From an uncultured delta proteobacterium (lineage in GTDB: Bacteria > Desulfobacterota > Desulfobulbia > Desulfobulbales > Desulfurivibrionaceae): a stretch of 64,000 nucleotides of DNA. Below the pieces are notes generated by a model. That model did not search any database and had not been told where the DNA came from. It saw only the letters and a list, made by a program, of their open reading frames with translations. The DNA is taken from contig CAIPYE010000014.1 in assembly GCA_903869265.1 (NCBI GenBank), positions 248,001 through 312,000 on the forward strand, given 5' to 3'. The stretch's first letter is position 1. Each line of letters begins with the position of its first letter. The position numbers were made by a program, and so were the translations under genes. Below, in pieces: positions 6,781 to 19,897 of this stretch.

Positions 6781-8133
6781 ATGCCTTCCCTGCAGGAAAA
6801 AGACAAACGGTTCCTCTGGCATCCTTACACCCAGATGCAGGATTATGCCCAGCGCGATCTGCTCCTGATCGACAGGGCGGAAGGTCTTTGCCTGTTCGAT
6901 CAGCAGGGTAAAAAGTATTTCGACACTATTTCCTCCTGGTGGTGCATTGTCCACGGGCATAACCATCCAACCATAACCGAAAAAATTCGTTTGCAGCTGG
7001 CACGGCTTGATCAGGTGCTGCTGGCCGGCACCAGCCATGAGGGGGCGATCCTGCTGGCGGAGGAGTTGGTGCGCCTCACGCCGCCCGAACTTTCCAGGGT
7101 GTTTTATTCGGATAATGGCTCCACGGCCTGCGAGATCGCGATCAAGATGTCGCTCCAGTACTGGCGGCAGATCGGACAGCCGAGCCGCTGCCAACTGGTG
7201 GGAATAGAGCGCGGCTATCATGGCGACACCATCGGCACCATGAGCTTGGGCGGGGTGCCGGAATTTCACGGCCCTTTTTCCCAACTGCTTTTTCCCTCGC
7301 ATCGGCTGCCGTCCCCTTATTGTTACCGATGTCCGGTCGGCCTGAGACAAGACTCCTGCGACTGCCAGTGTCTACAGCCGTTTGTTGAACTTCTGACCGG
7401 GCAAGGAACGCAAATTGCCGCCTTGATCATCGAGCCGCTTATCCAGGCAGCCGGAGGCATGATCGTCTATCCCGCGAAGTACCTGCGCAAGTTGGCCGCC
7501 TTGGCCAGGGAATATGGGGTGCATCTGATTTTTGACGAAGTGGCCACCGGCTTTGGCCGCACCGGGACCATGTTTGCCCTGGAGCAGGCCGGGGTGGCGC
7601 CTGATTTTCTCTGTTTGTCAAAGGGGTTGACTGCTGGTATGTTGCCCATGGCTGCGACGCTGACCAGCGAGGAGATTTTTCAGGCCTTTTATGCCGACTA
7701 TGGCGCGGGAAAAACCTTTTTCCATGGCCATACCTTCAGCGGCAATCCCTTGGCTGCTGCTGCGGCCCTTGGTTCGTTGCAGGTCTTTGCCGAAGAGCAG
7801 ACCATGGCCGGGCTACCGAACAAGATCAGCCATCTCCAGGTGCGGATGCGCCGTTTTGCCGACCTGCCATGGGTCGGGGATCTCAGGCAGATTGGCTTGG
7901 TCTGCGCTATGGAGCTGGTGAAGGATAGGGAAACCAAGGCCGCCTATGGGTTGCACGAACGGGTCGGCTGGCCGATCTATCTGGCCGGGCTTGAGCAGGG
8001 GCTTTTGTTGCGGCCCATTGGCAATGTCATTTATCTTTGGTTGCCGCTTTCCGTGACTCTGGCCGAGATAGACGAGATCACGGAACGGGCTTGGCAGGTG
8101 CTTTCCGATCCGCGGAATATTGCGGGGTGGTAG
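6781..8133 (+). CDS. bioA: Adenosylmethionine-8-amino-7-oxononanoate aminotransferase
   Basis: PLP-dependent class III aminotransferase of biotin synthesis; it converts KAPA to DAPA with SAM as amino donor. The 450-residue sequence begins with KRFLWHPYTQMQDY, has SWWCIVHGHNHP, the PLP-site IFDEVATGFGRTG and the lysine motif LCLSKGLTAGMLPMAATL (Schiff-base Lys in SKG). Length and motifs fit BioA rather than other class III enzymes. No other bio genes are adjacent; the partner is hpt upstream. The tRNA-Arg gene follows at 28 bp. Confidence 0.95.
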   Translation: MPSLQEKDKRFLWHPYTQMQDYAQRDLLLIDRAEGLCLFDQQGKKYFDTISSWWCIVHGHNHPTITEKIRLQLARLDQVLLAGTSHEGAILLAEELVRLTPPELSRVFYSDNGSTACEIAIKMSLQYWRQIGQPSRCQLVGIERGYHGDTIGTMSLGGVPEFHGPFSQLLFPSHRLPSPYCYRCPVGLRQDSCDCQCLQPFVELLTGQGTQIAALIIEPLIQAAGGMIVYPAKYLRKLAALAREYGVHLIFDEVATGFGRTGTMFALEQAGVAPDFLCLSKGLTAGMLPMAATLTSEEIFQAFYADYGAGKTFFHGHTFSGNPLAAAAALGSLQVFAEEQTMAGLPNKISHLQVRMRRFADLPWVGDLRQIGLVCAMELVKDRETKAAYGLHERVGWPIYLAGLEQGLLLRPIGNVIYLWLPLSVTLAEIDEITERAWQVLSDPRNIAGW

Positions 8134-8161
8134 ACTGTCTGTTTACAAGAATGGCGTGTGT

Positions 8162-8238
8162 GCGCCTGTAGCTCAGCTGGATAGAGCATCGGCCTTCGAA
8201 GCCGAGAGTCGGGGGTTCGAATCCCTCCGGGCGCACCA
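8162..8238 (+). tRNA. tRNA-Arg (anticodon TCG)
   Basis: A complete cloverleaf can be drawn. The acceptor stem GCGCCTG pairs with CGGGCGC (one T-G pair), the D stem is GCTC/GAGC, the anticodon stem TCGGC/GCCGA encloses loop CTTCGAA with anticodon TCG, and the T-loop is TTCGAAT. A is the discriminator base and CCA is encoded. It reads CGA codons. The 3' end is the integration site of the island that follows: the last 14 bases plus AATAAA are repeated exactly 37.3 kb downstream. Confidence 0.97.
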
Positions 8239-8244
8239 ATAAAA
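8225..8244 (+). repeat. attL-like 20-bp repeat at the 3' end of tRNA-Arg
   Basis: The sequence CTCCGGGCGCACCAATAAAA covers part of the T-stem side, the acceptor stem, CCA and six following bases. It recurs exactly at 45507-45526 in the same orientation. This is the typical core of a tyrosine-integrase attachment site in a tRNA gene. The left copy restores a full tRNA. Confidence 0.85.
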
Positions 8245-8246
8245 TC

Positions 8247-8279
8247 AAGGGGTTAGCGATATTCCGCTCACCCCTTTTT
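8247..8279 (+). terminator. Rho-independent terminator after tRNA-Arg
   Basis: AAGGGGT (8247-8253) pairs with ACCCCTT (8270-8276), extended by AGCG/CGCT, and is followed by a short T-run. It lies nine bases after the tRNA. Since it is inside the island boundary, it was probably supplied by the element; the ancestral terminator is likely the one at 45533. Confidence 0.75.
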
Positions 8280-8310
8280 CTATGCAAAACCCCCCATTTT
8301 TGTCCCATAC

Positions 8311-8538
8311 TAATAAGTTCATAAATTACTAGACATTACCTGGGGCCACTTCTCTTGTCTGGGCGAATCTCAAGAGGAATATCGGACGACGGGTGCTCAA
8401 GGGCAAAGGAAATTTAAAGGCTCGTGTCATAAGCCACCCCCGATCGCTCCAGAACATGGCGGATAAGATCGCCAAGTTTTTCCATCATCCGCTCGTTAAA
8501 TATGCCTTCACTGTGTCTAGTATCTTATGAACTTATTA
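8311..8538. repeat. 228-bp segment with 25-bp terminal inverted repeats (MITE-like)
   Basis: Bases 8311-8335 and 8514-8538 are inverted repeats matching at 23 of 25 positions, including 14 identical outer bases (TAATAAGTTCATAA). The interior (178 bp) has no full gene; on the minus strand it holds a short open stretch (about 8418-8520) ending in RSGVAYDTSL and a stop. The right arm begins where the integrase remnant loses similarity. It could be a small non-autonomous transposable element that helped disrupt the integrase. Flanking TA dinucleotides are possible but not clear target duplications. Confidence 0.5.
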
Positions 8539-8911
8539 ATAAGTCTTTATGGCCTGTCACTGTTGCTACCTCCACCTGATTCCAGCCCCTTTCAAAAAGT
8601 CGGCTGGTGGCCTCATGTCTCAGGTCATGCTGGCTATTTCGCCACATCGTGCGGCAGTCTCGAGAGCTATTATGATAATAGCTCTAATATCCTCCCTTTT
8701 AGAGTTCTTCCCGGCGGCTAAGAGTAGCTCTTCTTCGTTGTCTTCCAAGCGCTGGTCCCGACCAGGCGGAAGGGACGGTTTCCGAACCAGTGCTGTGGCG
8801 ATCCCGCGAGGGAGGGGGATGCCCCAATCCATCACGCAATGCTTGAGTACTCGGTTGAGTAAACCGATTTCATGCTTGACGGTTTGCGGGGCAGCTCCGG
8901 TTTTCAGTCAG
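8525..8911 (-). pseudogene. Decayed tyrosine recombinase (integrase)
   Basis: On the minus strand the first part reads as a phage-integrase core-binding region (TVKHEIGLLNRVLKHCVMDW, then KPSLPPGRDQRLEDNEEELL) and the start of the catalytic domain (ALETAARCGEIASM, which holds the first catalytic Arg). A stop follows at once. In another frame, overlapping the break, the distal catalytic region continues (HDLRHEATSRLFERG, then VEVATVTGHKDL, i.e. the HxxR and GHK boxes). The middle of the catalytic domain, the C-terminal nucleophile Tyr and the N-terminal arm are missing. This is an internal deletion with frameshift plus truncation at both ends. Its position beside tRNA-Arg marks it as the island integrase. 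Confidence 0.85.
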
Positions 8912-8921
8912 AGATAGCGAA

Positions 8922-9953
8922 TCAGAAATCTTTTTGCGCCTCAAATATATCAGCAAAGATATTTACTGATTTTTTAAAGGCCGACAGTATCTCCGGATCA
9001 AAATGATAAGGCATGGTCCGCCCATCGCCCTTGGTGATAATTGACACGGCTTTTTCATGATCAAAAGAGGGTTTATAGGGTCTTTTGCTGCGTAAGGCAT
9101 CATACTGATCAGCAATATTCATGATTCGGGAAGTGATTGGACTTTCCTCACCCCTGAGCCCCCTTGGATACCCACTTCCATCCCATCGTTCATGGTGACA
9201 TTTGGCAATATCGACAGCCATTTGGAGTAATGGAGATTCGGACCCCTCGAGAATTTTTGCGCCAATTTCGGCATGGGTTTTCATGGTCTTCCATTCGGCA
9301 TCACCAAGTGGCCCATTTTTAAGTAAAATAGAATCAAGAATTGCTATCTTGCCGATATCATGCATAGGAGAGGCATAAAAGATGGAATCGCAAAAATCAC
9401 CATCCATCCCCATCTGCTGAGACAGTTCCCTGGTGTAGTAGCTGATACGTTTGATGTGCGCGCCAGTTTCTTCATCTTTGTATTCCGAAGCTAGGGTCAA
9501 TCGATACACTGTGTCGATGTATCCAACACGAAGTTGTTTGGTTCGTTGAGATACCAGGTCTTCTAAATGTTCCTGGTAGAGATGAAGTTTTATGTGATTC
9601 CTTACCCTGGCAAGGATAATGGCGGAACTGATTGGCTTGGCAATGTAATCTACAGCACCCAGATTCAAGCCCTTTTTTTCATCTTCAATTTCATTCTTTG
9701 CAGTGACAAAAATAATTGGAATGTTCTTTGTCTTCTCATATTCTTTCAAACTTTTACACACATCATATCCGTCTATTTCAGGCATCATTATATCGAGAAG
9801 GATAAGATCAATACGTTCACTATTGCAAATTTCTATTGCCTTAACACTGTCAGTAGTTGTGAATACTTTGTATTCTTTGCGTAAAATTATCTCAAGAAGC
9901 TTAAGGTTGGTGGGATTGTCATCTACGACTAAAATTACGTGTTTTTCGTTCAT
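8922..9953 (-). CDS. Response regulator with HD-GYP domain (c-di-GMP phosphodiesterase type)
   Basis: This 343-residue protein is built like RpfG. An N-terminal receiver domain (residues 1-120; phospho-acceptor Asp in LILLDIMMPEIDGYDV; conserved FVTAK) is joined by a short helical linker to an HD-GYP domain (about 150-340; HDIGKIAILD and HHERWDGSGYPRGL). HD-GYP enzymes hydrolyse cyclic di-GMP. No histidine kinase is adjacent, so its partner is unknown. It is the last minus-strand gene of the export module, and a GGDEF-PilZ gene sits at the opposite end, so it probably sets local c-di-GMP control of polysaccharide output. Confidence 0.92.
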   Translation of the reverse strand: MNEKHVILVVDDNPTNLKLLEIILRKEYKVFTTTDSVKAIEICNSERIDLILLDIMMPEIDGYDVCKSLKEYEKTKNIPIIFVTAKNEIEDEKKGLNLGAVDYIAKPISSAIILARVRNHIKLHLYQEHLEDLVSQRTKQLRVGYIDTVYRLTLASEYKDEETGAHIKRISYYTRELSQQMGMDGDFCDSIFYASPMHDIGKIAILDSILLKNGPLGDAEWKTMKTHAEIGAKILEGSESPLLQMAVDIAKCHHERWDGSGYPRGLRGEESPITSRIMNIADQYDALRSKRPYKPSFDHEKAVSIITKGDGRTMPYHFDPEILSAFKKSVNIFADIFEAQKDF

Positions 9954-10041: not shown

Positions 10042-10581
10042 CTAGTCGTTCACATGCGCCTCTGCGAACTGGGCCAGCATCTCATGAATCTTGTAGGGAG
10101 GACGGACCTGAAAATAGTGGTCGACAACAATATGGCCGACCTCATGGGCCAGCACGCTTAAGTTCACATCCCTTACCGACAGGTAAATGGTTTTTTCGCC
10201 CAGGGAATAATAGGCAACGTGATCGACGCGTTTGCCGTACTTCTGAAAGTAGACTTCTTGTACTTCCTTAGATGAGGGTAGAAGGACTATTGTGACGTAA
10301 AGTTTGGCTGGAAACATGTCGAGCACCGTTTCCACTTTTTCCACAATGATATTCAGTTTGTTTTGCAGTTCATCCTGGATGGTGAAAGCCTTCTGCTGGC
10401 GGACTTGTAAACTAAGCTGGCGGCCCAGGTAGAGCTCGTCGTTGAACTTTTGCAGAAGAGCAATGTCATCATACTGCACCGTTGCATAACGTGTTTTCAA
10501 TTCCTCGCACAGGGAGGGGGATACGGTCCCGACAAGCAGGAAAAATAATATAACCAGACTGGCACATACTCTACTGGTCAT
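10042..10581 (-). CDS. Secreted zinc metalloprotease-like protein (HExxH type)
   Basis: The 179-residue product begins with a signal peptide (hydrophobic residues 5-22, then SLCEELK). Near its C-terminus it carries VLAHEVGHIVVDHYF, a HExxH-type zinc motif with a following His (HEVGHIVVDH), as in small gluzincin or peptidase-MA-like proteins. The protein is short, with about 35 residues after the motif, and a clear third zinc ligand could be the Glu in KIHEMLAQFAEAH. Its first codons overlap the end of the upstream HAMP-like gene by 11 bp, so translation is probably coupled. It may cleave a periplasmic or membrane partner encoded next to it. The substrate is unknown. Confidence 0.65.
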   Translation of the reverse strand: MTSRVCASLVILFFLLVGTVSPSLCEELKTRYATVQYDDIALLQKFNDELYLGRQLSLQVRQQKAFTIQDELQNKLNIIVEKVETVLDMFPAKLYVTIVLLPSSKEVQEVYFQKYGKRVDHVAYYSLGEKTIYLSVRDVNLSVLAHEVGHIVVDHYFQVRPPYKIHEMLAQFAEAHVND

Positions 10582-11146
10582 TCACCACCGTGAAAAATCT
10601 GGCTGATTGTTGCAAGTTTTTATTTAAGGCTTCTATCTTCTGTAGCTTTATCTCAAGGGGTTCCGCTCCTTGCGCAGTATCGTCGATTTGCTGCGCAAGA
10701 AGGGATATGTTACTGATTTTTTTCGCATAAATTGTGTTTAATATATTAATTTTTTCGGCCAGAGCCTTACAATGGTCCTTTTGGCGCAGATAAATTCGAT
10801 CTCCAATTTTCCCCAGGCACATCTCGTCTAGGTTTTTTTCAAGCTTGAAGAGAGGTCCTGCCATTCTGTGGGATACCAAGATGGTTCGCACGGTAATCCA
10901 GATGCCGCCAGGAATCAAAAGAATCCAGGCAATCAGGAGAATCTTTTTTAAAAGAATCAGCGGGGTGCGCTCAAGCTGTAGGTCGTTCTGGGCATAGACG
11001 ATGGTCAAGGCATCGGAGGTGAGAAAAGTGAATAGGCCTATAAAAAGGATGATTACCATCAGTGCCAGGATGTAACTATTAAATACGTGCTGTCCCTGAA
11101 AATTGCGGTCGATGAAATAGTGCTTTCTTGTGTACTTTGGCTTCAT
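10571..11146 (-). CDS. Two-pass membrane protein with HAMP-like/coiled-coil tail
   Basis: This 191-residue protein has two membrane segments (about residues 25-46 and 68-90) separated by a short loop with LTIVYAQNDLQLERTP. A HAMP-like segment (HRMAGPLFKLEKNLDEMCLG) and a long charged helical tail (about 130-185) follow. It resembles the membrane and HAMP part of chemoreceptor-type sensors but has no signalling output domain. It overlaps its upstream neighbour by four bases (ATGA) and its downstream neighbour by 11, so the three genes form a tightly coupled set. I do not recognise a named family; a role as membrane adaptor for the polysaccharide machinery is inference. Confidence 0.6.
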   Translation of the reverse strand: MKPKYTRKHYFIDRNFQGQHVFNSYILALMVIILFIGLFTFLTSDALTIVYAQNDLQLERTPLILLKKILLIAWILLIPGGIWITVRTILVSHRMAGPLFKLEKNLDEMCLGKIGDRIYLRQKDHCKALAEKINILNTIYAKKISNISLLAQQIDDTAQGAEPLEIKLQKIEALNKNLQQSARFFTVVNDQ

Positions 11147-11892
11147 TGGGGGACCTCTATTGTGTGAGTGTTTACCTCAACGTGAGCTTTTTGCACAAGT
11201 TCGGCTATCCATTTTCGCAACAACTGTTCCCGATTGAAGTCCTCGATGAGGGCCGCAACTTTTTCGTGGTTTTCCGGGGAACCATTTTGGGCGGTCTTTG
11301 ATACTGTGTCAAGCCTGATGGTGTAGCTACAACCCATAAAGTCTATTTTATCCGACACGTCTCCCTCGTGCAGGTGGAGTAAATTCATGCGTAAGGAGAA
11401 TGCAAGATTCTGGAAAAGAGATTCAATCGTTTCAGCCTGGCATACCTCACTGCTTCCTTGAGAAGAAGCGCTGACTGGCTGTAAGCGGATCTTCACCTTT
11501 TTGTTGTGGAGATTCAGGTACGCGGAAATGTCCGCCTCTGTCGGCTTGGGGGGGGGTTTTTCCAGCTGGCGGTCCAGCAGGGTCTTTACCAGGGACTGCT
11601 CGTAAAAGTTTTTGATGGACTGCCGGAACGCTTCTTCTTGGTCGATTTTCCTCTCCATCGCTTCGTGAATTAATACTTCTTTGGTAATCAACGAGTTGAT
11701 AAACTCATACTTGATATCATGTGAGTCCAAAGAAACATTCCGTCCCTTGGTAAGGTCCGATTTTAGAATATACCGGTCATTTACCTTGGCGATATAGTCG
11801 CCAGGAGGTTGCTTCCCGTCACGGGCTGTGAGGGTTATTACCCCTGCGGTCAGAAGCAGCATAAAGATAATAATATAAAACAAGTAACGCAT
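11143..11892 (-). CDS. SurA/EpsD-like periplasmic chaperone, membrane-anchored
   Basis: The 249 residues start with a single N-terminal membrane segment (YLFYIIIFMLLLTAGVITL). A SurA-N-type region follows (DYIAKVNDRYILKSDL, then EFINSLITKEVLIHEAMER and EEAFRQSIKNFYEQSLVKTL). The later part corresponds in place to a peptidyl-prolyl isomerase domain but has no clear parvulin motifs. Proteins called EpsD in exopolysaccharide loci have this plan. A nine-C run (plus-strand G9 at 11548-11556) encodes the Pro stretch EKPPPKP and is in frame. It probably helps assemble outer-membrane or periplasmic parts of the exporter. Confidence 0.7.
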   Translation of the reverse strand: MRYLFYIIIFMLLLTAGVITLTARDGKQPPGDYIAKVNDRYILKSDLTKGRNVSLDSHDIKYEFINSLITKEVLIHEAMERKIDQEEAFRQSIKNFYEQSLVKTLLDRQLEKPPPKPTEADISAYLNLHNKKVKIRLQPVSASSQGSSEVCQAETIESLFQNLAFSLRMNLLHLHEGDVSDKIDFMGCSYTIRLDTVSKTAQNGSPENHEKVAALIEDFNREQLLRKWIAELVQKAHVEVNTHTIEVPQ

Positions 11893-11951: not shown

Positions 11952-14303
11952 TCACATCTGATTGATCAACTGGGCAAGATGCTGGCTGGCACCCTTGTCT
12001 TCCGGATCCAATAAAAGTGCCTGTTCGAATTCTTCCTTGGCCCGATAGTAGATGCCGAGTTCTTGATATGCCAACCCGGACATCGTCCTGAGATGGCTGT
12101 CTTTTGGCAGGAGAGCCGATCCTTTCAGGGATACGGCCAAGGCATCTTCCGTTTTTTTGTGCTTGAGCAGCGCCCAAAACACCTTGGAAAAAAGCCAGGG
12201 GGTAATTTTTGCTTCGTTCTCAATATAGCGCAGAGAGTTTTTATATGTGGACAAGGCTTCTTCCGTGTTGCCAAACTCCATAAGTATATCGCCGTAGGCT
12301 TGATGTGCTTCTACCCTGTCCGGCAGCAAAGTAACGAGTTCTTTACTTTTCAGGCCATGGCCCATGGCAAGGGCAAAATATGTTTTTGTTTCGGCCGGTT
12401 CCATGGCAATGGCGATCTTGAGGTAGGCAAGGGCCTCTTCTTTTTTCCCTCCGGCAAGAAGCCACGAGCCATATGCGCGCATGGGAACAGGGTCATTTGG
12501 CGCAAGCCTTTTTGCGGCCAGTAGTATTTTCTGGGCCCGCTCCGGGGCGGCAGACGAGGTGTATAGGGCATATTGTCCGAGAAACTTGCCGTTTGTTGGG
12601 GACAGTAAGATTGCCCGCTCATAATTCTGCTGTGCCGCAGGGAAATTGTTGGAAAAGGCCTCAATATTGGCCAGCGCGAACCAATATTCTCCCTCCAGCG
12701 GATCGGAGGCGGCAGCTGCCTCGGCCGTGTCTCTAATCTCCTGCATTTTTTTCTGGGGGATATTTTTGTTCAGGTACAGAGAGCTGATCTGGCCGTATAG
12801 GTATCTGCCTCTGGCAATGTCGAAGTTGTGTGTTGTTCCGACAATGAGTAGCAACAGGGCGGCTAGCGCGCACCAGTGTTTATGCCAGAGGTTGCTTGGG
12901 GGCAGAAGGCTTTCTTGGGCTGTGGCCTGTCTTCGGGTATGGCTTGCCGAAACAAGGAGTCCGCAGAGCAGAAAAAAGTAGAGGCCATTGGCGCCGTTGT
13001 ATATGTTGAAGTCGGTTACTGAGTGGAAAAAAATTGCGACAATTCCCGACATGCTGCCGAGGGTAAGCAAGGTTGCAAAATGATCGCGCCTTTTGGCCAG
13101 AACCTTCAGGGTATCTCGGAAAAGAACAGCGATGAAGAGGGCGATCAGCAAAAAGCCGACCAGCCCGCCGTCTGTCAGGATTTCAATGTAGTCGTTATGG
13201 GCGTGGTCATAAATAAAATTGCCGGGAACGGTACGGTAGGCAGGATAGGTCGTGAGGAAAGAGCCGAAGCCGCTGCCGAAAAGGGGGAAGTCCTTGATCA
13301 TCTGCCAGGAGTCATGCCAAACCGTGAAGCGGGATTCCTGGATTTCACCGGCGGCGTTGGCGAAGCGATCAAAGCGGCCAAAGATCGGCTCCCAGCCGAA
13401 CCAGGAGACAGTGGCAACGCTCACCAGGAGGAAAAGCAGGAGATATTTCCCCTTTGTTGAGTGGGAAAAGCTGCCCTTGCTTCTGGTCAGAAGGAAAAAG
13501 AAAAAGAGCAGGGAAAGGGTCGAGCTTATGATGCCGCCCCGGGACAGACTCACGAAGATGGAAGCGTACATCAGAATGGCGCACAGGCCCAGGATGATGT
13601 GTATATTGGCCTTGGGCAAAGTGAAAACCGAGACAACCTTTTCCCGCAAGGGCAAGTTGTAGGAGAAGGTGGGTCGGTAGTAGAGAAACAGGGCCAAACA
13701 GATGGGGAGCAGCATCTCCATGTAACCGGCAAAATGGTTATGGTACACCCAGGGTCCGGTCGGTATAGCGTTGTCGGGGGTTATGAGAAACCAATAGATC
13801 TTGGCGGGTGAGCCGAATTTTTGAATGATCCCCTCAAAGGCGATGAATCCAGCGAGAAGGCAGAGAGTCAGCAGGACTTTTTTGAAATACCGGTAGCGGC
13901 TCAGCAGTTGGACTGCGGCTATGTAGCACAGGCCATAGGTGGTAAAACGAAAAAACTCATCGAGGGTGGCTTTGGGGTTCAGGGTGAGGGGATGCCAGGC
14001 ACTGTCTCCTGCGCCTGTTGTTATCGAATAAACGGTAAAAGTTTGCGGCGAGAGCAGTTTGAGAAGAAACGGCGGCAGGGGCAGCAGTTGGAAAAGCATA
14101 TACCCCAGCAGGGCAAAAAGGGGGACGAGTCCAGGCACGGTGTACCAGCAGGCTTCTTTCCTTTGAGTCCCCCAGAAAAAGGCCAACACGGCCAGGCAGA
14201 TGAGAACAGTATTGGTGGCCTGGGACCACAGTTCGACACTGCCGAAGGCCAGGGGGGCAAAGATCAGGGTGGTGAGGAAAATATACAGGGCCGACTTGGA
14301 CAT
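11952..14303 (-). CDS. O-antigen ligase/polymerase-type membrane protein fused to TPR repeats
   Basis: This 783-residue protein has about ten or more membrane segments in residues 1-470 and a Wzy_C/WaaL signature in the large periplasmic loop (RFTVWHDSWQMIKDFPLFGS and DHAHNDYIEILTDGGLVGFL). From about residue 500 to the end are tetratricopeptide repeats (for example EEALAYLKIAIAMEPAETKT and RAKEEFEQALLLDPEDKGAS). It either polymerises repeat units or transfers the finished chain. The island has a second protein of this class at 34976-36295. Because this one lies with the conserved export genes rather than in the variable sugar cassette, the ligase-like role is slightly more likely here (inference). 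Confidence 0.85.
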   Translation of the reverse strand: MSKSALYIFLTTLIFAPLAFGSVELWSQATNTVLICLAVLAFFWGTQRKEACWYTVPGLVPLFALLGYMLFQLLPLPPFLLKLLSPQTFTVYSITTGAGDSAWHPLTLNPKATLDEFFRFTTYGLCYIAAVQLLSRYRYFKKVLLTLCLLAGFIAFEGIIQKFGSPAKIYWFLITPDNAIPTGPWVYHNHFAGYMEMLLPICLALFLYYRPTFSYNLPLREKVVSVFTLPKANIHIILGLCAILMYASIFVSLSRGGIISSTLSLLFFFFLLTRSKGSFSHSTKGKYLLLFLLVSVATVSWFGWEPIFGRFDRFANAAGEIQESRFTVWHDSWQMIKDFPLFGSGFGSFLTTYPAYRTVPGNFIYDHAHNDYIEILTDGGLVGFLLIALFIAVLFRDTLKVLAKRRDHFATLLTLGSMSGIVAIFFHSVTDFNIYNGANGLYFFLLCGLLVSASHTRRQATAQESLLPPSNLWHKHWCALAALLLLIVGTTHNFDIARGRYLYGQISSLYLNKNIPQKKMQEIRDTAEAAAASDPLEGEYWFALANIEAFSNNFPAAQQNYERAILLSPTNGKFLGQYALYTSSAAPERAQKILLAAKRLAPNDPVPMRAYGSWLLAGGKKEEALAYLKIAIAMEPAETKTYFALAMGHGLKSKELVTLLPDRVEAHQAYGDILMEFGNTEEALSTYKNSLRYIENEAKITPWLFSKVFWALLKHKKTEDALAVSLKGSALLPKDSHLRTMSGLAYQELGIYYRAKEEFEQALLLDPEDKGASQHLAQLINQM

Positions 14304-14317
14304 ACTCTTCTCACCGT

Positions 14318-15016
14318 TTAGATTGGTCGGTTTTCCAGCACAGCGGCCGGGTTATTTTTCACTAGAGATTCGCCGTTGCCCTTGCCCAGGATTTTTTCCG
14401 CCGTTTTCAGACCGGCAGCAAGGCGCGGCTGGCGATTGGGCATGGGATGGCCGTCCGTGGCAATGAAATGGACCAGGTTGCGACGCAGCAGGTAGTGGGC
14501 ACATTGCTGGATGGCAGGCCCGAAGGTGCCGGTGATGCTATCTGCGGTGATCTGGGTTTTGACCCCCATTTTGATCAGAGGTTCGAGCAGGTCCGGATTG
14601 CGTATCACCCCAGGGTTTCTTTCCGGATGGGCAATGATCGGCCAAAAGTCCAGTTTCAACCCCTCTTTGAGAAGTCGGGTGGACATGGAGGGAAAATGGC
14701 TGTGTGGAAATTCGATCAGGATGTACTTGCCGTTATTGATGGTAAAGTCGCCCCACGCCCCAAGGTCATAATGGCTGGGAAGCTCAGCGCCGGAATAGAT
14801 GGTAAGAGGGATTCCTTCCTGTTTCAGTGCCTGATTGAGATCCTTGGTGCGTTTGACAATTTCCTCGGCATTCTGGAAGGAGTCTGAAATGTGCGGGGTG
14901 GCGATCATGTCAGTAATGCCATCCTTGACTGCCGTTCTGGCCATGGCAAGGGCCTGTTCTGTGTCGACAGGGCCGTCGTCCACCCCTGGCAGGATGTGGC
15001 AATGGATGTCGATCAT
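14318..15016 (-). CDS. CpsB/YwqE-type tyrosine-protein phosphatase (PHP fold)
   Basis: A 232-residue metal-dependent phosphatase of the PHP family with the ordered motifs IDIHCHILPGVDDGP, ATPHIS, AHPERN and ATDGHP. In polysaccharide loci this enzyme dephosphorylates the C-terminal tyrosines of the BY-kinase. That kinase is the gene immediately upstream, and the two overlap by four bases. The length (about 230-250) matches the family. Confidence 0.92.
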   Translation of the reverse strand: MIDIHCHILPGVDDGPVDTEQALAMARTAVKDGITDMIATPHISDSFQNAEEIVKRTKDLNQALKQEGIPLTIYSGAELPSHYDLGAWGDFTINNGKYILIEFPHSHFPSMSTRLLKEGLKLDFWPIIAHPERNPGVIRNPDLLEPLIKMGVKTQITADSITGTFGPAIQQCAHYLLRRNLVHFIATDGHPMPNRQPRLAAGLKTAEKILGKGNGESLVKNNPAAVLENRPI

Positions 15017-17208
15017 GCCGCAGACTGTTCCTGCGGTTCAGGTTCAGGAGCAGCATAGTAATGCTGATAGTACCCGCCGTAGTAATAGTCGCCACTTACC
15101 TTTTCGTTCATACCGTTGATCACGACGCCAAGCAGAGAGGCATGGATTGACTGAAGCATCTTGAGCCCGCGGCCCAGCAATTCATAGTTTGTCTTCCCAG
15201 CTCTGGTAACCATGACCACTCCGGCAACAAGATGGCTTAAAACTAAACTGTCCGTCACACTCAAGATTGGCGGGGTATCCATGATAATGTAGTCAAACTT
15301 CACAGCCAGCCCTTTGAGCAGGTTGGCCATCCGCTCAGAGCCCAGCAACTCGGAGGGATTGGGCGGAATAGGGCCAGCGGGGATGACGGTCACATGACCC
15401 TCTTCGAGTTTGGCCGCAATTTCCTTGTCTGTGTTTCCGGACAGATAGGTAGACAACCCTACACGGTTGGAGATGCCTAGAAGGGTGTGCAGTCGTGGCT
15501 TGCGCATGTCGCAGTCCAGCAGAATGACCTTGCTGCCGGTCTGGGCTAGGGTGCGGGCAATGTTGAGGGAGGTGGTAGTCTTGCCTTCCTGTGGCTCCAC
15601 ACTGGTTATCAGTAAGGTTTTGGGTGGATGATCTGGAGAGGAAAGCAACAGCGAAGAGCGGATGGATTTGTAACACTCTGCGGTTGGTGATCGTGGATCA
15701 TCAATGATGATGCTCTCAATGGACTTGCCTTTCTCGTCCAGCTGTCCCACCGCTCCGAGCACCGGAACCTTGAAGCGGCGTTCCACCTCTTCACTGCTCT
15801 TGACCGTATTGTCCAGATATTCGATGAAAAAAGCACAGCCAATTCCCCCAAACAGCCCCAACACCAGGCCGAGCAGGATGTTGCGGATTTTCTTTGGAGT
15901 AGCCGGGGATCCAGGGGGCTGCGCCTGTTTGACCACCCAGACATTGACCATCTGCGACTGTTCGGTGGCCCCTTGTTGTTTTATGTTTTTTATCAGGGCG
16001 TCATAGAGGGCACGGTTCGTTTCGGATTCCCGTTGCATGATGTCGTACTGGATCATTTTTTCATTGACGGCGAGCATCTCCTGTTTGGACCCCTCCAACA
16101 GGTTTGCGATATTCTGTTCCTGGGATCTGGCCAGGGTGTATTGATTTTTGATGGTTTGAACAATGCGTTTGATTTCTCTTCCTTTTTCCTGGTTCAGAAT
16201 TTCCTTATCGCTAAGAGCCTTGATCATCACTGGATGTTTGGCCCCATATTTAGCGGTAAGTTCGGCGATTTTCTGGTCTGCTAAGAGTATTTGGTCGCGG
16301 ATGCGTTGCAGGGCCAGATTGCTTGCCAATAAAGGATGCGACTCAATGGCTTCAGGATTGTTCTCCTGGACGTGCAGCTGGTTGTAAAGATCTTCGGATT
16401 CCTTCCGCAAGGCTTGTGCCTTGGAGAGCTGGACGGAAAATTCGGCAAGCTTTCCGGGCACAACCACCTGTTTGTTTTCAACGGTCACAATGTTATTGTC
16501 TTGCCGATATTTTTGCAGGGTCATTTCTGATTTTTGGAGTTTTTTCCTTTCCTCCTCTGCCTTGGCGGTCATCCACTGTAATGCGTAGTTGCTGGCATGC
16601 ATTTTTATTTCCAGCAACTCGGCCATGTAAGAGTCAACCATGGCATTCACCACCATGCTGGACATGATCGGGTTAGGATCCCGGTAGGTCACCGAAACAA
16701 TCTTGGTGTTGCGCAGAGGTGTGGTCTGGATTCTCTTCTGGATAATCGCGGCGATGCGATCGGCATCGGTTTGTTCTTTTCCTTGCAGGGAGAGATTTTC
16801 GCCCTTGCCACTGCTGGAGAAGAAACCCTTGATGTCGGCCATGGCAGCAGAGAGAAAGCCCTCCTTATCACCAAGAAAGTACCGGCGGTATTTGGTGTCG
16901 AGTTTGAGCCGATCTATGACCCGGTATACCACGTTGTTGCTCTTGATGATCTCAAATTGGGTCTGGAGAAATTCGGGGTCATAGCTGAGCATTCCCGTTG
17001 TCACGGTCAGGTCGTTGTCCTTGGTTTTCTCGATAAGAACCTGGGTATCTGCCTCATAGAGCGGAGTCACGGCAAAGGTGCCAAGAAAAACAAGGGTGAA
17101 GGTGATGGCGGCAAAGAGACCGATCACCTGTCTGCGTTTTTTGATAACATGGTAGTAATCGCGAAGGTGGATTTCCTGGTCAATGGTTTCAAGCTGTTGT
17201 TCTTGCAT
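15013..17208 (-). CDS. Wzc-type chain-length regulator and tyrosine autokinase
   Basis: This 731-residue inner-membrane protein fuses a Wzz/GNVR polysaccharide co-polymerase region (membrane segments near residues 35 and 440, coiled coil between them) to a cytoplasmic BY-kinase domain. The kinase has Walker A SVEPQEGKTTTSLNIA, Walker A' VILLDCDMRKPRLH and Walker B YIIMDTPP. The C-terminus carries the autophosphorylation cluster, seven Tyr in YYYGGYYQHYY. It controls chain length and couples polymerisation to export together with the Wza-like protein and the phosphatase encoded next to it. Confidence 0.94.
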   Translation of the reverse strand: MQEQQLETIDQEIHLRDYYHVIKKRRQVIGLFAAITFTLVFLGTFAVTPLYEADTQVLIEKTKDNDLTVTTGMLSYDPEFLQTQFEIIKSNNVVYRVIDRLKLDTKYRRYFLGDKEGFLSAAMADIKGFFSSSGKGENLSLQGKEQTDADRIAAIIQKRIQTTPLRNTKIVSVTYRDPNPIMSSMVVNAMVDSYMAELLEIKMHASNYALQWMTAKAEEERKKLQKSEMTLQKYRQDNNIVTVENKQVVVPGKLAEFSVQLSKAQALRKESEDLYNQLHVQENNPEAIESHPLLASNLALQRIRDQILLADQKIAELTAKYGAKHPVMIKALSDKEILNQEKGREIKRIVQTIKNQYTLARSQEQNIANLLEGSKQEMLAVNEKMIQYDIMQRESETNRALYDALIKNIKQQGATEQSQMVNVWVVKQAQPPGSPATPKKIRNILLGLVLGLFGGIGCAFFIEYLDNTVKSSEEVERRFKVPVLGAVGQLDEKGKSIESIIIDDPRSPTAECYKSIRSSLLLSSPDHPPKTLLITSVEPQEGKTTTSLNIARTLAQTGSKVILLDCDMRKPRLHTLLGISNRVGLSTYLSGNTDKEIAAKLEEGHVTVIPAGPIPPNPSELLGSERMANLLKGLAVKFDYIIMDTPPILSVTDSLVLSHLVAGVVMVTRAGKTNYELLGRGLKMLQSIHASLLGVVINGMNEKVSGDYYYGGYYQHYYAAPEPEPQEQSAA

Positions 17209-17377: not shown

Positions 17378-17914
17378 TTAAAAGAAACTTTCCAGCACAA
17401 CCACCACATCGTTTTTTTGCACAAATGTATCCAGGGGGACGTCTTTCATGATGATCTCCTTTTCGCCAGCCTTGCGAATGATTGTGACGCCACCCTTGGC
17501 AGCCTTGCCGTTGAAGCCGCCGGCAAGGGTGATTGCCTTGATCACCGTTGTGTCATCACTGATGACGTATGCATCAGGTTTCATCACCTCGCCGGTTACA
17601 TAGCATTTGCTGCCATAAGCCTCGATGAAAACGTTGATCTGGGGGGCAACTATATAGCCATCCGCCAGCTTTGCCGCGAGAAGGTCCGAGATTTCCCCGA
17701 TGGTTTTGCCTTTCACTGCAACAGGGCCCAAAAGTGGCATTAGAATATGACCGGTATCATTGACATTGACCTTGGTTTCAAGATCCGGGTGGTCATAGAC
17801 TGTGATTCTGAGCACGTCACCGTATCCCACCGTGTAGGAGTCAGCATTGGCGGAAAAGGGGAGGACAAGAAGGGAGAGCAAGGCGAGGCAGAAAAAAGAG
17901 AATTGTTTCTTCAC
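17378..17914 (-). CDS. Wza-like polysaccharide export protein (short form)
   Basis: This 178-residue secreted protein has a signal peptide (residues 1-24, ending FSANA), then the Poly_export domain (YTVGYGDVLRITVYDHPDLE) and one SLBB-type domain (CYVTGEVMKPDAYVISDDTT). It is much shorter than E. coli Wza and lacks a lipobox Cys, as do many short versions in deltaproteobacterial loci. It forms or caps the periplasmic and outer-membrane channel. The beta-barrel gene upstream may supply the actual outer-membrane pore (inference). Confidence 0.9.
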   Translation of the reverse strand: MKKQFSFFCLALLSLLVLPFSANADSYTVGYGDVLRITVYDHPDLETKVNVNDTGHILMPLLGPVAVKGKTIGEISDLLAAKLADGYIVAPQINVFIEAYGSKCYVTGEVMKPDAYVISDDTTVIKAITLAGGFNGKAAKGGVTIIRKAGEKEIIMKDVPLDTFVQKNDVVVVLESFF

Positions 17915-18021: not shown

Positions 18022-19347
18022 CTAAAATCCAGAGCTCAGTCGGATGAATACCTTGTTTGCTGCGTAATCATAAACGTCCTGGTTGGAATTGCGCTCCGAA
18101 TACTCATAGCCGAGGTCGGCCATGAGCCATTCTTTGAACATGTACCTCAGGGAGGGACTCAGCGAGTACATGTTGTCGGTTCTTCCCGGTTCCCCTGCAT
18201 TTTCCTGGAAGTCCATTTTGGTATAGGAAAGGCGAAGGGATGCCCCGATCTTTTCAGTGAACTGCTCCAGCACAGTGAAGGCAACGTTGGAGTCGTTAGA
18301 GTAGGACGCTGTGGACACCGTGGACTCGCTGACCTTCTGGGAGGCAACAAGCTGAAGTCCGGTTTTCTCCGTGAGCTGATGGGTTGCGGAGAGTTCGATC
18401 ACGGGTTCCGTCGTATCGCCGACGGTGGTGTTGTCGCTGTTGCGCTCCACCACGCCAACCTTGGCTCTGAGGCTGGTTTTCTCGGTGGGTTTCCATTGGA
18501 TGCCGAGGCTGTAGTGGTGCTGCTCATTGTTTTCTCTGGTGTTGATGTCGTAGTTGACGTTGACAAACTCGTATTGGGCAAAGAGATTGGTTTTTTGCGA
18601 GTATTTGTAGAAGAGATAGCCGCTGTATGAGTTGTCGTCGCGGTTCTTGCCAAGGCTATCCGCCAGATTGTAGCTCAGGTGGAACTTGGTGTAATCAAAC
18701 CGGATATTGAATTTTGTGCCGAGATCGTAGTCGATCATCGTGCCGGTGAGATTGCTTTTGAATTTGTCAAGCTCAGTGGTGTCGCCGGTGCCGAGGGGGT
18801 CTGCTGAGCTGATATACTTGTCAAACACATCAATGGAAAGCCCGCCGCGCAGGTTGTATTGGAAATAGCCCACGCCTGCCTGTTTTACAGTGTTTAGCTC
18901 GGTATGGGTATGGTACTCCTCTATGTCCGCGCCGTAAAAGGCATAGCCCTGGTAGCGGTTGAAGGATTTCGGCTTGTCCATGAACATCTGGCGACCACCG
19001 GGAGCGGTGTTTGAGGAAACAATCTCCAATTGGGTCTGCTGACTTCTCGGCAGTGCCAGCCAGATGCTGGGGGAGTAAATGGTGCTCCAATCGCCGATTT
19101 TGTCATTTTTTGTATTGTTGATGTTGTCCGAGGTAACTCCGGAGACGGACATGGAGGGATGGATAAAACCGCCCCTGGAGCCAAAAATTTCGCTGGTTGA
19201 AGATGAAGAAGCCGCGGGTGTGGTTGCTTGGGCAGTACTGTTTGCCACTGGTTGGTTGTCCTCTGCGGAAAAAGCAAGCGGTGGTGAGAGCAGGCAGACC
19301 CCTGTGCTAAAGGCCAACGCGGTGAGTTTGTAAACATTCTTGTTCAT
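18022..19347 (-). CDS. Outer-membrane beta-barrel protein of the polysaccharide locus
   Basis: The ATG at 19347 has AGGAAG upstream and begins a clear signal peptide (MNKNVYKLTALAFSTGVCLL, cleaved after FSA); the upstream extension of the frame is not coding-like. The mature part is a series of alternating amphipathic strands ending in an aromatic residue (VFIRLSSGF), typical of an outer-membrane barrel. It contains GGFIHPSMSVSGVTSDNINN near the start, as seen in barrel proteins of EPS loci (EpsL/BBP2-like). At 441 residues it could be a 16-18-stranded export pore. It is flanked by the wza-like gene and the small secreted protein gene. Confidence 0.8.
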   Translation of the reverse strand: MNKNVYKLTALAFSTGVCLLSPPLAFSAEDNQPVANSTAQATTPAASSSSTSEIFGSRGGFIHPSMSVSGVTSDNINNTKNDKIGDWSTIYSPSIWLALPRSQQTQLEIVSSNTAPGGRQMFMDKPKSFNRYQGYAFYGADIEEYHTHTELNTVKQAGVGYFQYNLRGGLSIDVFDKYISSADPLGTGDTTELDKFKSNLTGTMIDYDLGTKFNIRFDYTKFHLSYNLADSLGKNRDDNSYSGYLFYKYSQKTNLFAQYEFVNVNYDINTRENNEQHHYSLGIQWKPTEKTSLRAKVGVVERNSDNTTVGDTTEPVIELSATHQLTEKTGLQLVASQKVSESTVSTASYSNDSNVAFTVLEQFTEKIGASLRLSYTKMDFQENAGEPGRTDNMYSLSPSLRYMFKEWLMADLGYEYSERNSNQDVYDYAANKVFIRLSSGF

Positions 19348-19393
19348 TTTGGCTTCCTGTTGAAAAATTAAGCAAAAAGGGGGAAATACAAAA

Positions 19394-19426
19394 AAGAGGC
19401 ATGCTCGTGAAGGCCGCATGCCTCTT
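19394..19426 (-). terminator. Terminator of the small secreted-protein gene
   Basis: AAGAGGCATGC (19394-19404) pairs exactly with GCATGCCTCTT (19416-19426). Read on the minus strand the hairpin is followed by a run of T (plus-strand AAAAA before it). It lies 16 bases past the stop of the gene at 19442-19897 and separates it from the beta-barrel gene. Confidence 0.85.
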
Positions 19427-19441
19427 ATGCAAATTTAATAT

Positions 19442-19897
19442 TTATCTCAAGCGAGAAGGGCTTGCGTAGCGCCCTGCCGGAGCGCCACCGCCACTGCCGC
19501 CAGGAACTCCGGACACAGGGATACTTGCCACGAAGGAGGCCGGGCGTGCTGCCGGGGTGTAGGCTTGGGTGTCCGTGGTTCCTTTGCTGACAAACTGCTG
19601 GGTAGCCCGGGCGATAATCTGGGCGCTCACGCCGTTATTTGCCGCGACTGTAGCTACTGCGCCGACATCCGCCCCAGCAGTGAGCAGGGCGATGATCACC
19701 GCCTGGGGGTTCATTCCCTCAATGGCCAAGGCTTGTGTCATAATTACATCAAGGCTGGTTCCTTCAGCCATTGCCTCGACTACAGCCTGGTCCAGGCCCT
19801 GGGTGTTGAGCGTGTTTTCAAACCTTGCTGTATTTGCTGCAAAGGCAACGTTACAGAACAATACGGAAACCGCGAGGACAGACATGATTTTTTTCAT
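19442..19897 (-). CDS. Small secreted protein of unknown family
   Basis: The 151-residue product has a clean signal peptide (MKKIMSVLAVSVLFCNVAFA). An Ala/Val-rich, probably helical body follows with two related stretches (LDQAVVEAMAEGTSLDVIMT and VGAVATVAANNGVSAQIIAR), and the tail is low-complexity Gly/Pro/Ser ending SPSRLR. There is no PEP-CTERM motif, lipobox or enzyme signature. It has a strong AAGGAGAA ribosome site, a recognisable promoter (19938-19967) and its own terminator (19394-19426), so it is a separate, probably well-expressed unit inside the polysaccharide locus. I do not recognise it. It could be a matrix or structural protein, or an accessory of the neighbouring barrel. Confidence 0.8.
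   Translation of the reverse strand: MKKIMSVLAVSVLFCNVAFAANTARFENTLNTQGLDQAVVEAMAEGTSLDVIMTQALAIEGMNPQAVIIALLTAGADVGAVATVAANNGVSAQIIARATQQFVSKGTTDTQAYTPAARPASFVASIPVSGVPGGSGGGAPAGRYASPSRLR

Follow-up and report, generated by a model that had tools for sequence, protein, structure and literature searches.

What do three short, overlapping genes beside a polysaccharide locus do together? The question arises from a 64,000-nucleotide stretch of DNA (hereafter the window) of an uncultured delta proteobacterium. The genes lie on the minus strand and are read in the order SUR, HAMP, PEP. SUR (11143 to 11892) encodes a 249-aa membrane-anchored SurA/EpsD-like chaperone, the HAMP gene (10571 to 11146) a 191-aa two-pass inner-membrane protein, and PEP (10042 to 10581) a 179-aa protein predicted to be a secreted gluzincin-type zinc peptidase. 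A sequence-only reading had regarded them as a coupled set of unknown purpose that could act in proteolytic signalling or quality control for polysaccharide export. The overlaps on which it relied, 4 bases between SUR and HAMP and 11 bases between HAMP and PEP, are confirmed by the ORF coordinates.

The EPS genes of the window share the strand of the trio. A gene for a Wzy_C protein (O-antigen ligase/polymerase) with C-terminal TPRs (11952 to 14303) ends 59 bases before SUR. It is preceded by genes for a CpsB/CapC-type phosphatase (14318 to 15016), a Wzz/Wzc-type chain-length protein with a tyrosine-kinase domain (15013 to 17208), a Wza/EpsE-type polysaccharide export protein (17378 to 17914) and an EpsL-type outer-membrane beta-barrel protein (18022 to 19419, with a true start possibly later), which is a candidate client of the trio. 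Because the trio follows the Wzy_C/TPR gene at 59 bases and on the strand of the EPS genes, it may form the tail of an EPS operon. Promoter and terminator scans were uninformative: promoter-like sites were rarer than in shuffled sequence, and terminators did not clearly exceed the shuffled level. Adjoining the EpsL gene, positions 19442 to 19897 (minus strand) encode a 151-aa secreted protein without a confident Pfam family, which many relatives keep together with the EPS locus. An exosortase-linked EPS system was rejected, as exosortase/EpsH (PF09721) was not found in the window's genome, which is 99% complete. GGDEF-PilZ and HD-GYP genes also lie near the trio within the window. Among them, a receiver-HD-GYP regulator (8922 to 9953, minus strand) starts 88 bases after PEP and had been suggested as a further member of the unit. 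It is seldom found near the trio in other genomes, and we do not count it as a fourth, conserved part.

That the trio is a real conserved module is close to certain. Neighbourhoods read with the three family profiles contain SUR, HAMP and PEP in the same order and on the same strand in 90 of 106 distinct peptidase loci, an arrangement far beyond chance, and the motif HExxH-x(15-17)-E is kept in 88 of the 90 full-trio peptidases. The full set is also present in 17 of 20 loci of a second order, in a sample that partly overlaps the earlier loci. In the underlying searches, the peptidase was present in 9 of 58 relatives, 54 of 258 genomes of the order and 30 of 395 genomes sampled across the phylum; the alignment of divergent peptidases contained no searchable stretch, and a closer sequence set was used instead. 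An initial scan of the genome collection with the HAMP protein as the query gave no matches. The remaining peptidase loci include contig ends, an interrupted HAMP gene, stand-alone peptidases and two divergent paralogues.

Several of these loci deserve mention in their own right. In locus L020, a 455-aa ORF (7394 to 8761), probably an insertion element, lies inside the HAMP gene and splits it. Stand-alone peptidases are found in L094, L095 and L145-L151, with L146-L151 representing distant relatives from other families of the phylum that keep HExxH...E and have neither SUR nor HAMP. L136 (6110 to 6712) and L138 (7057 to 7671) each carry a second PEP paralogue divergent from the trio, in which REMAH replaces HExxH and the downstream glutamate is lost; judged by these substitutions, it is a probable inactive copy beside an active peptidase.

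Carriers of the trio include Desulfosediminicola flagellatus, Desulfofustis glycolicus, a Desulforhopalus sp. and MAGs of Desulfocapsa and Desulfobacula, and one Omnitrophota MAG (L205) has the trio with EPS genes adjoining. Within the window's own genus, the peptidase is absent from the 16 other genomes, several of them incomplete. SUR, PEP, Wzc, EpsL and Wza of the window have their nearest relatives in the same few loci (L127, L080 and L015), and these common relatives would fit joint inheritance or transfer of the trio and the EPS locus. The HAMP and Wzy genes are less clearly nearest to those loci, and distance-matrix correlations (0.79-0.96) do not separate the trio from the EPS genes.

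We analyzed the three products individually. SUR has an N-terminal membrane anchor and matches SurA_N_3 weakly. Its AlphaFold model (pLDDT 88) resembles HP0175, PEB4 and SurA, with a SurA-type N domain, an inserted parvulin-like domain and a C-terminal helix, and the SUR family profile matches HP0175 at 3e-10. As in the earlier assignment, the protein is SurA-like, in both sequence and fold. The parvulin part is shortened in the alignment, Rotamase_2 is matched, weakly, by only 9 of 43 family members, and the domain is probably non-catalytic. A second SUR subclass, of about 190-200 aa, has no parvulin domain and often carries a lipobox. SUR differs from SurA, PEB4, HP0175 and EpsD in its reduced or missing parvulin domain, its membrane or lipid anchor and its coupling to HAMP and PEP. 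EpsD (TIGR02925) is, by name and origin, an EPS-locus family, and 26 of 43 SUR relatives match it at E<=0.01. SUR itself scores 31.3 bits (E 1.5e-7), below the curated cut-off of 108.9, and we do not assign it to that family.

The HAMP protein has the architecture anticipated from the sequence, with two hydrophobic helices around a periplasmic loop of ~20 aa, a HAMP domain and a variable coiled tail, and without an output domain. Its family profile aligns with the TM2-HAMP segment of E. coli Tsr, and the likeness extends to the coil; unlike Tsr, it has neither a sensory nor a signalling output domain. PF00672 is matched by 6 of 33 relatives, and a c-di-GMP-binding EAL or HD-GYP domain was found neither in the protein nor in these 33 relatives. 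Conservation is high in the loop (2.97 bits), the N-terminus and the HAMP domain and lowest in the C-terminal coil (1.68 bits).

PEP is likely an active zinc peptidase. The small protein carries a signal peptide and, as first noted, an HEVGH motif (codons 146-150, 10132 to 10146, minus strand) followed after 16 residues by a glutamate (Glu-167, 10081 to 10083, minus strand). His-146 and His-150 are presumed zinc ligands, with Glu-167 as the presumed third and Glu-147 as the catalytic residue, and all four are invariant in 47 sequences. The AlphaFold model (pLDDT 95) finds its best structural matches in the catalytic domains of M1 aminopeptidases and M9 (clostridial) collagenases (Z 7.6-8.8 over 90-129 residues), among them ERAP2 (Z 8.8, 2.8 A over 112). 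Foldseek matches include the minigluzincins selecase and jannalysin, with a best E-value of only 0.016. The motif and the model, whose Z scores are moderate, point to a gluzincin with a thermolysin-like catalytic fold. Gluzincins, including the minigluzincins, share with PEP the HExxH and downstream glutamate and the fold of the catalytic domain; PEP differs in being secreted, in having no confident Pfam or NCBIfam family, and in a mature protein (about 155 aa) that consists entirely of the catalytic domain. It also has no sequence match in the PDB. Assignment to the BepA/M48 family was rejected, as Peptidase_M48 is matched at 13.4 bits against a cut-off of 20.3 and over 16 residues only.

We next consider where the trio is found. 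EPS markers were defined as Wzc, Wza, Wzy, EpsL and CpsB within about 8 kb, and 80 full trios had at least 6 kb of flank. At least one marker lies beside 63 of these, at least two beside 54, and none near 17. Most commonly the genes run SUR>HAMP>PEP> Wzy< Wzc< Wza< EpsL<, with 47 of the 54 multi-marker trios convergent with the markers and 7 co-directional, and Wzy_C is the commonest immediate neighbour in other genomes. The EpsL barrel is present in 42 of 54 trio genomes versus 41 of 204 others of the order (Fisher p 6e-15, not corrected for relatedness). The trio is not a universal EpsL partner, given 41 genomes with EpsL and no detected trio; in some of these a contig ends at the locus, as in L214, where the HAMP gene lies at the contig end. 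In genus g17, which by the names of matching MAGs is Desulfocapsa-like, the nearest EPS markers are farther off, at 22 and 41 kb in two genomes, and in L059 the trio is flanked by a sugar-nucleotide transferase and a glycosyltransferase, the latter matching PilZ weakly. Of the 17 full trios in the second order, only 5 have at least two markers nearby, and most have no EPS neighbours. In other genomes the three genes mostly stay together; their linkage to polysaccharide loci holds for most trios of the larger sample and fails for the 17 unmarked ones and for much of the second order.

Some trios have no recognisable export neighbour, and others have export genes of a different kind. An OmpH/Skp gene overlaps SUR in L142. 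In the second order, a secretin lies near the trio in L241, and a PqqD/M50/HlyD protein, an accessory SecA and an HlyD protein are encoded upstream of it in L243, possibly as an uncharacterised secretion system; the upstream region of L133 looks similar to that of L243 by size. The theme common to the neighbours is export across the envelope. We consider it fairly probable that the trio is an export accessory and, given the SecA/HlyD, secretin and Skp neighbours in other lineages, it looks like a general one that is mostly used by EPS loci.

Three further gene families recur next to the trio. In Desulfobacula-type genomes (L185, L187-L197, L200-L203), a gene for a small HAD-like protein (VDLDGTLA) lies before SUR, often 20-40 bases away, and is a possible fourth operon member there. 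A short thioredoxin/glutaredoxin-like protein (CPRC) is encoded upstream of SUR in several loci of family f12 (L075, L076, L078, L082 and L084). In one family, the trio is followed by a conserved secreted protein of ~175 aa that has no Pfam match (L139, 7349 to 7885; L140, 8558 to 9079; L143, 8565 to 9077).

It is likely that the three products act together. We favour a role in chaperone and proteolytic quality control of envelope export proteins, gated by the HAMP protein, and assign this reading a probability of roughly 0.45, since it gives each of the three parts a role and suits the mixed export contexts. The trio would then be one inner-membrane module in support of envelope export machines, above all of a Wzx/Wzy-type EPS system whose outer-membrane barrel is of the EpsL type. 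SUR, tethered by its N-terminal helix or, in the second subclass, by a lipid anchor, would hold newly secreted export proteins unfolded, as SurA and PEB4 do, without contributing proline-isomerase activity. PEP would cleave clients that fail to assemble, or trim one specific client. The HAMP protein, presumably a membrane dimer, would join both sides: its conserved periplasmic loop may dock SUR or PEP, and its switch may decide whether clients are held or cut. There is precedent in the periplasmic HExxH zinc peptidase BepA, which is linked to barrel export proteins and by which the barrel LptD is assembled or degraded (PMC8423444); PEP belongs to another peptidase family, lacks a TPR domain and is partnered with HAMP and SUR. 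Export and outer-membrane-protein biogenesis genes as alternative neighbours also argue for quality control. Against it stand the trios without such neighbours, the moderate Z scores (8-9) and best Foldseek E-value of PEP, and the fact that a plain chaperone/protease pair needs no HAMP protein. That EpsL itself is folded by the trio is a guess, as EpsL marks the whole EPS locus and often occurs where no trio was detected.

The main rival is inside-out signalling. A cytoplasmic cue, for example c-di-GMP acting via a partner, would shift the HAMP domain, and the loop would sequester or release PEP, which would then cut an EPS-anchoring or export protein, as in LapD/LapG or DvhD/DvhG. In those systems, too, a membrane receptor and a periplasmic protease govern surface material; LapD uses its HAMP domain to pass c-di-GMP binding on to the protease LapG (PMC3032553), and the analogue in Desulfovibrio vulgaris has an HD-GYP receptor (PMC13090378). 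The pairing of a periplasmic protease with a HAMP protein at an EPS locus, the GGDEF-PilZ and HD-GYP genes of the window and the PilZ-like glycosyltransferase in L059 are consistent with such control. The HAMP protein, however, lacks EAL, HD-GYP and GGDEF domains and has a ~20-aa loop rather than a periplasmic output domain, PEP is a metallopeptidase and no BTLCP cysteine protease, genes for c-di-GMP signalling are not among the conserved neighbours, and the SurA-like protein is left unexplained. We reject membership in the LapD/LapG system on these domain differences, retain it as an analogy, and consider inside-out control unlikely. The opposite direction, in which misfolded export proteins are sensed by SUR and PEP and the HAMP protein informs a cytoplasmic partner, would agree with the inward signal relay usual for HAMP domains (PMC3032553) and with the highly conserved cytoplasmic N-terminus, but conservation is lowest in the tail after the HAMP domain, and the conserved neighbours include no kinase, cyclase or regulator, which leaves an outside-in sensor improbable.

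The strict conservation of the catalytic residues of PEP and the frequent linkage to the same EPS genes could instead reflect maturation, with one defined cut in an EPS component presented by SUR (EpsL, Wza or the 19442-19897 protein) and the HAMP protein as a membrane scaffold; no candidate substrate is shared across the EPS, SecA/HlyD and other contexts, and we regard this account as quite doubtful. Trios without EPS markers, most of the sampled second-order ones included, and a peptidase that, of the 17 genomes of its genus, only the window genome has would suit a housekeeping unit of general function that travels with mobile EPS loci. The adjacency recurs in many genera and in both orientations as well as in Omnitrophota, however, so that we hold such incidental linkage to be very improbable.

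Quality control with HAMP gating combines parts of known fold, and we found the combination of these three known part types nowhere described in the mostly open-access literature surveyed, in agreement with the sequence-only reading. It is a tentative, rather long-odds possibility that the trio represents a new class of membrane-gated periplasmic protease system, with a minigluzincin-like peptidase under the direct switch of a HAMP protein that has neither a sensor nor an output domain, and with a SurA-like chaperone loading clients, for control of the assembly of polysaccharide and protein export machines. If the HAMP protein does gate PEP, the trio would be a metalloprotease counterpart of LapD/LapG. 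The gene order of the module is conserved, and its peptidase without a family name occurs in a large group of sulfate-/sulfur-metabolising bacteria in which biofilm formation and EPS export are poorly understood. In Desulfofustis glycolicus, Desulfosediminicola flagellatus and the Desulforhopalus strain, isolates carrying the trio, the idea of a protease, a chaperone and a relay acting together is testable.
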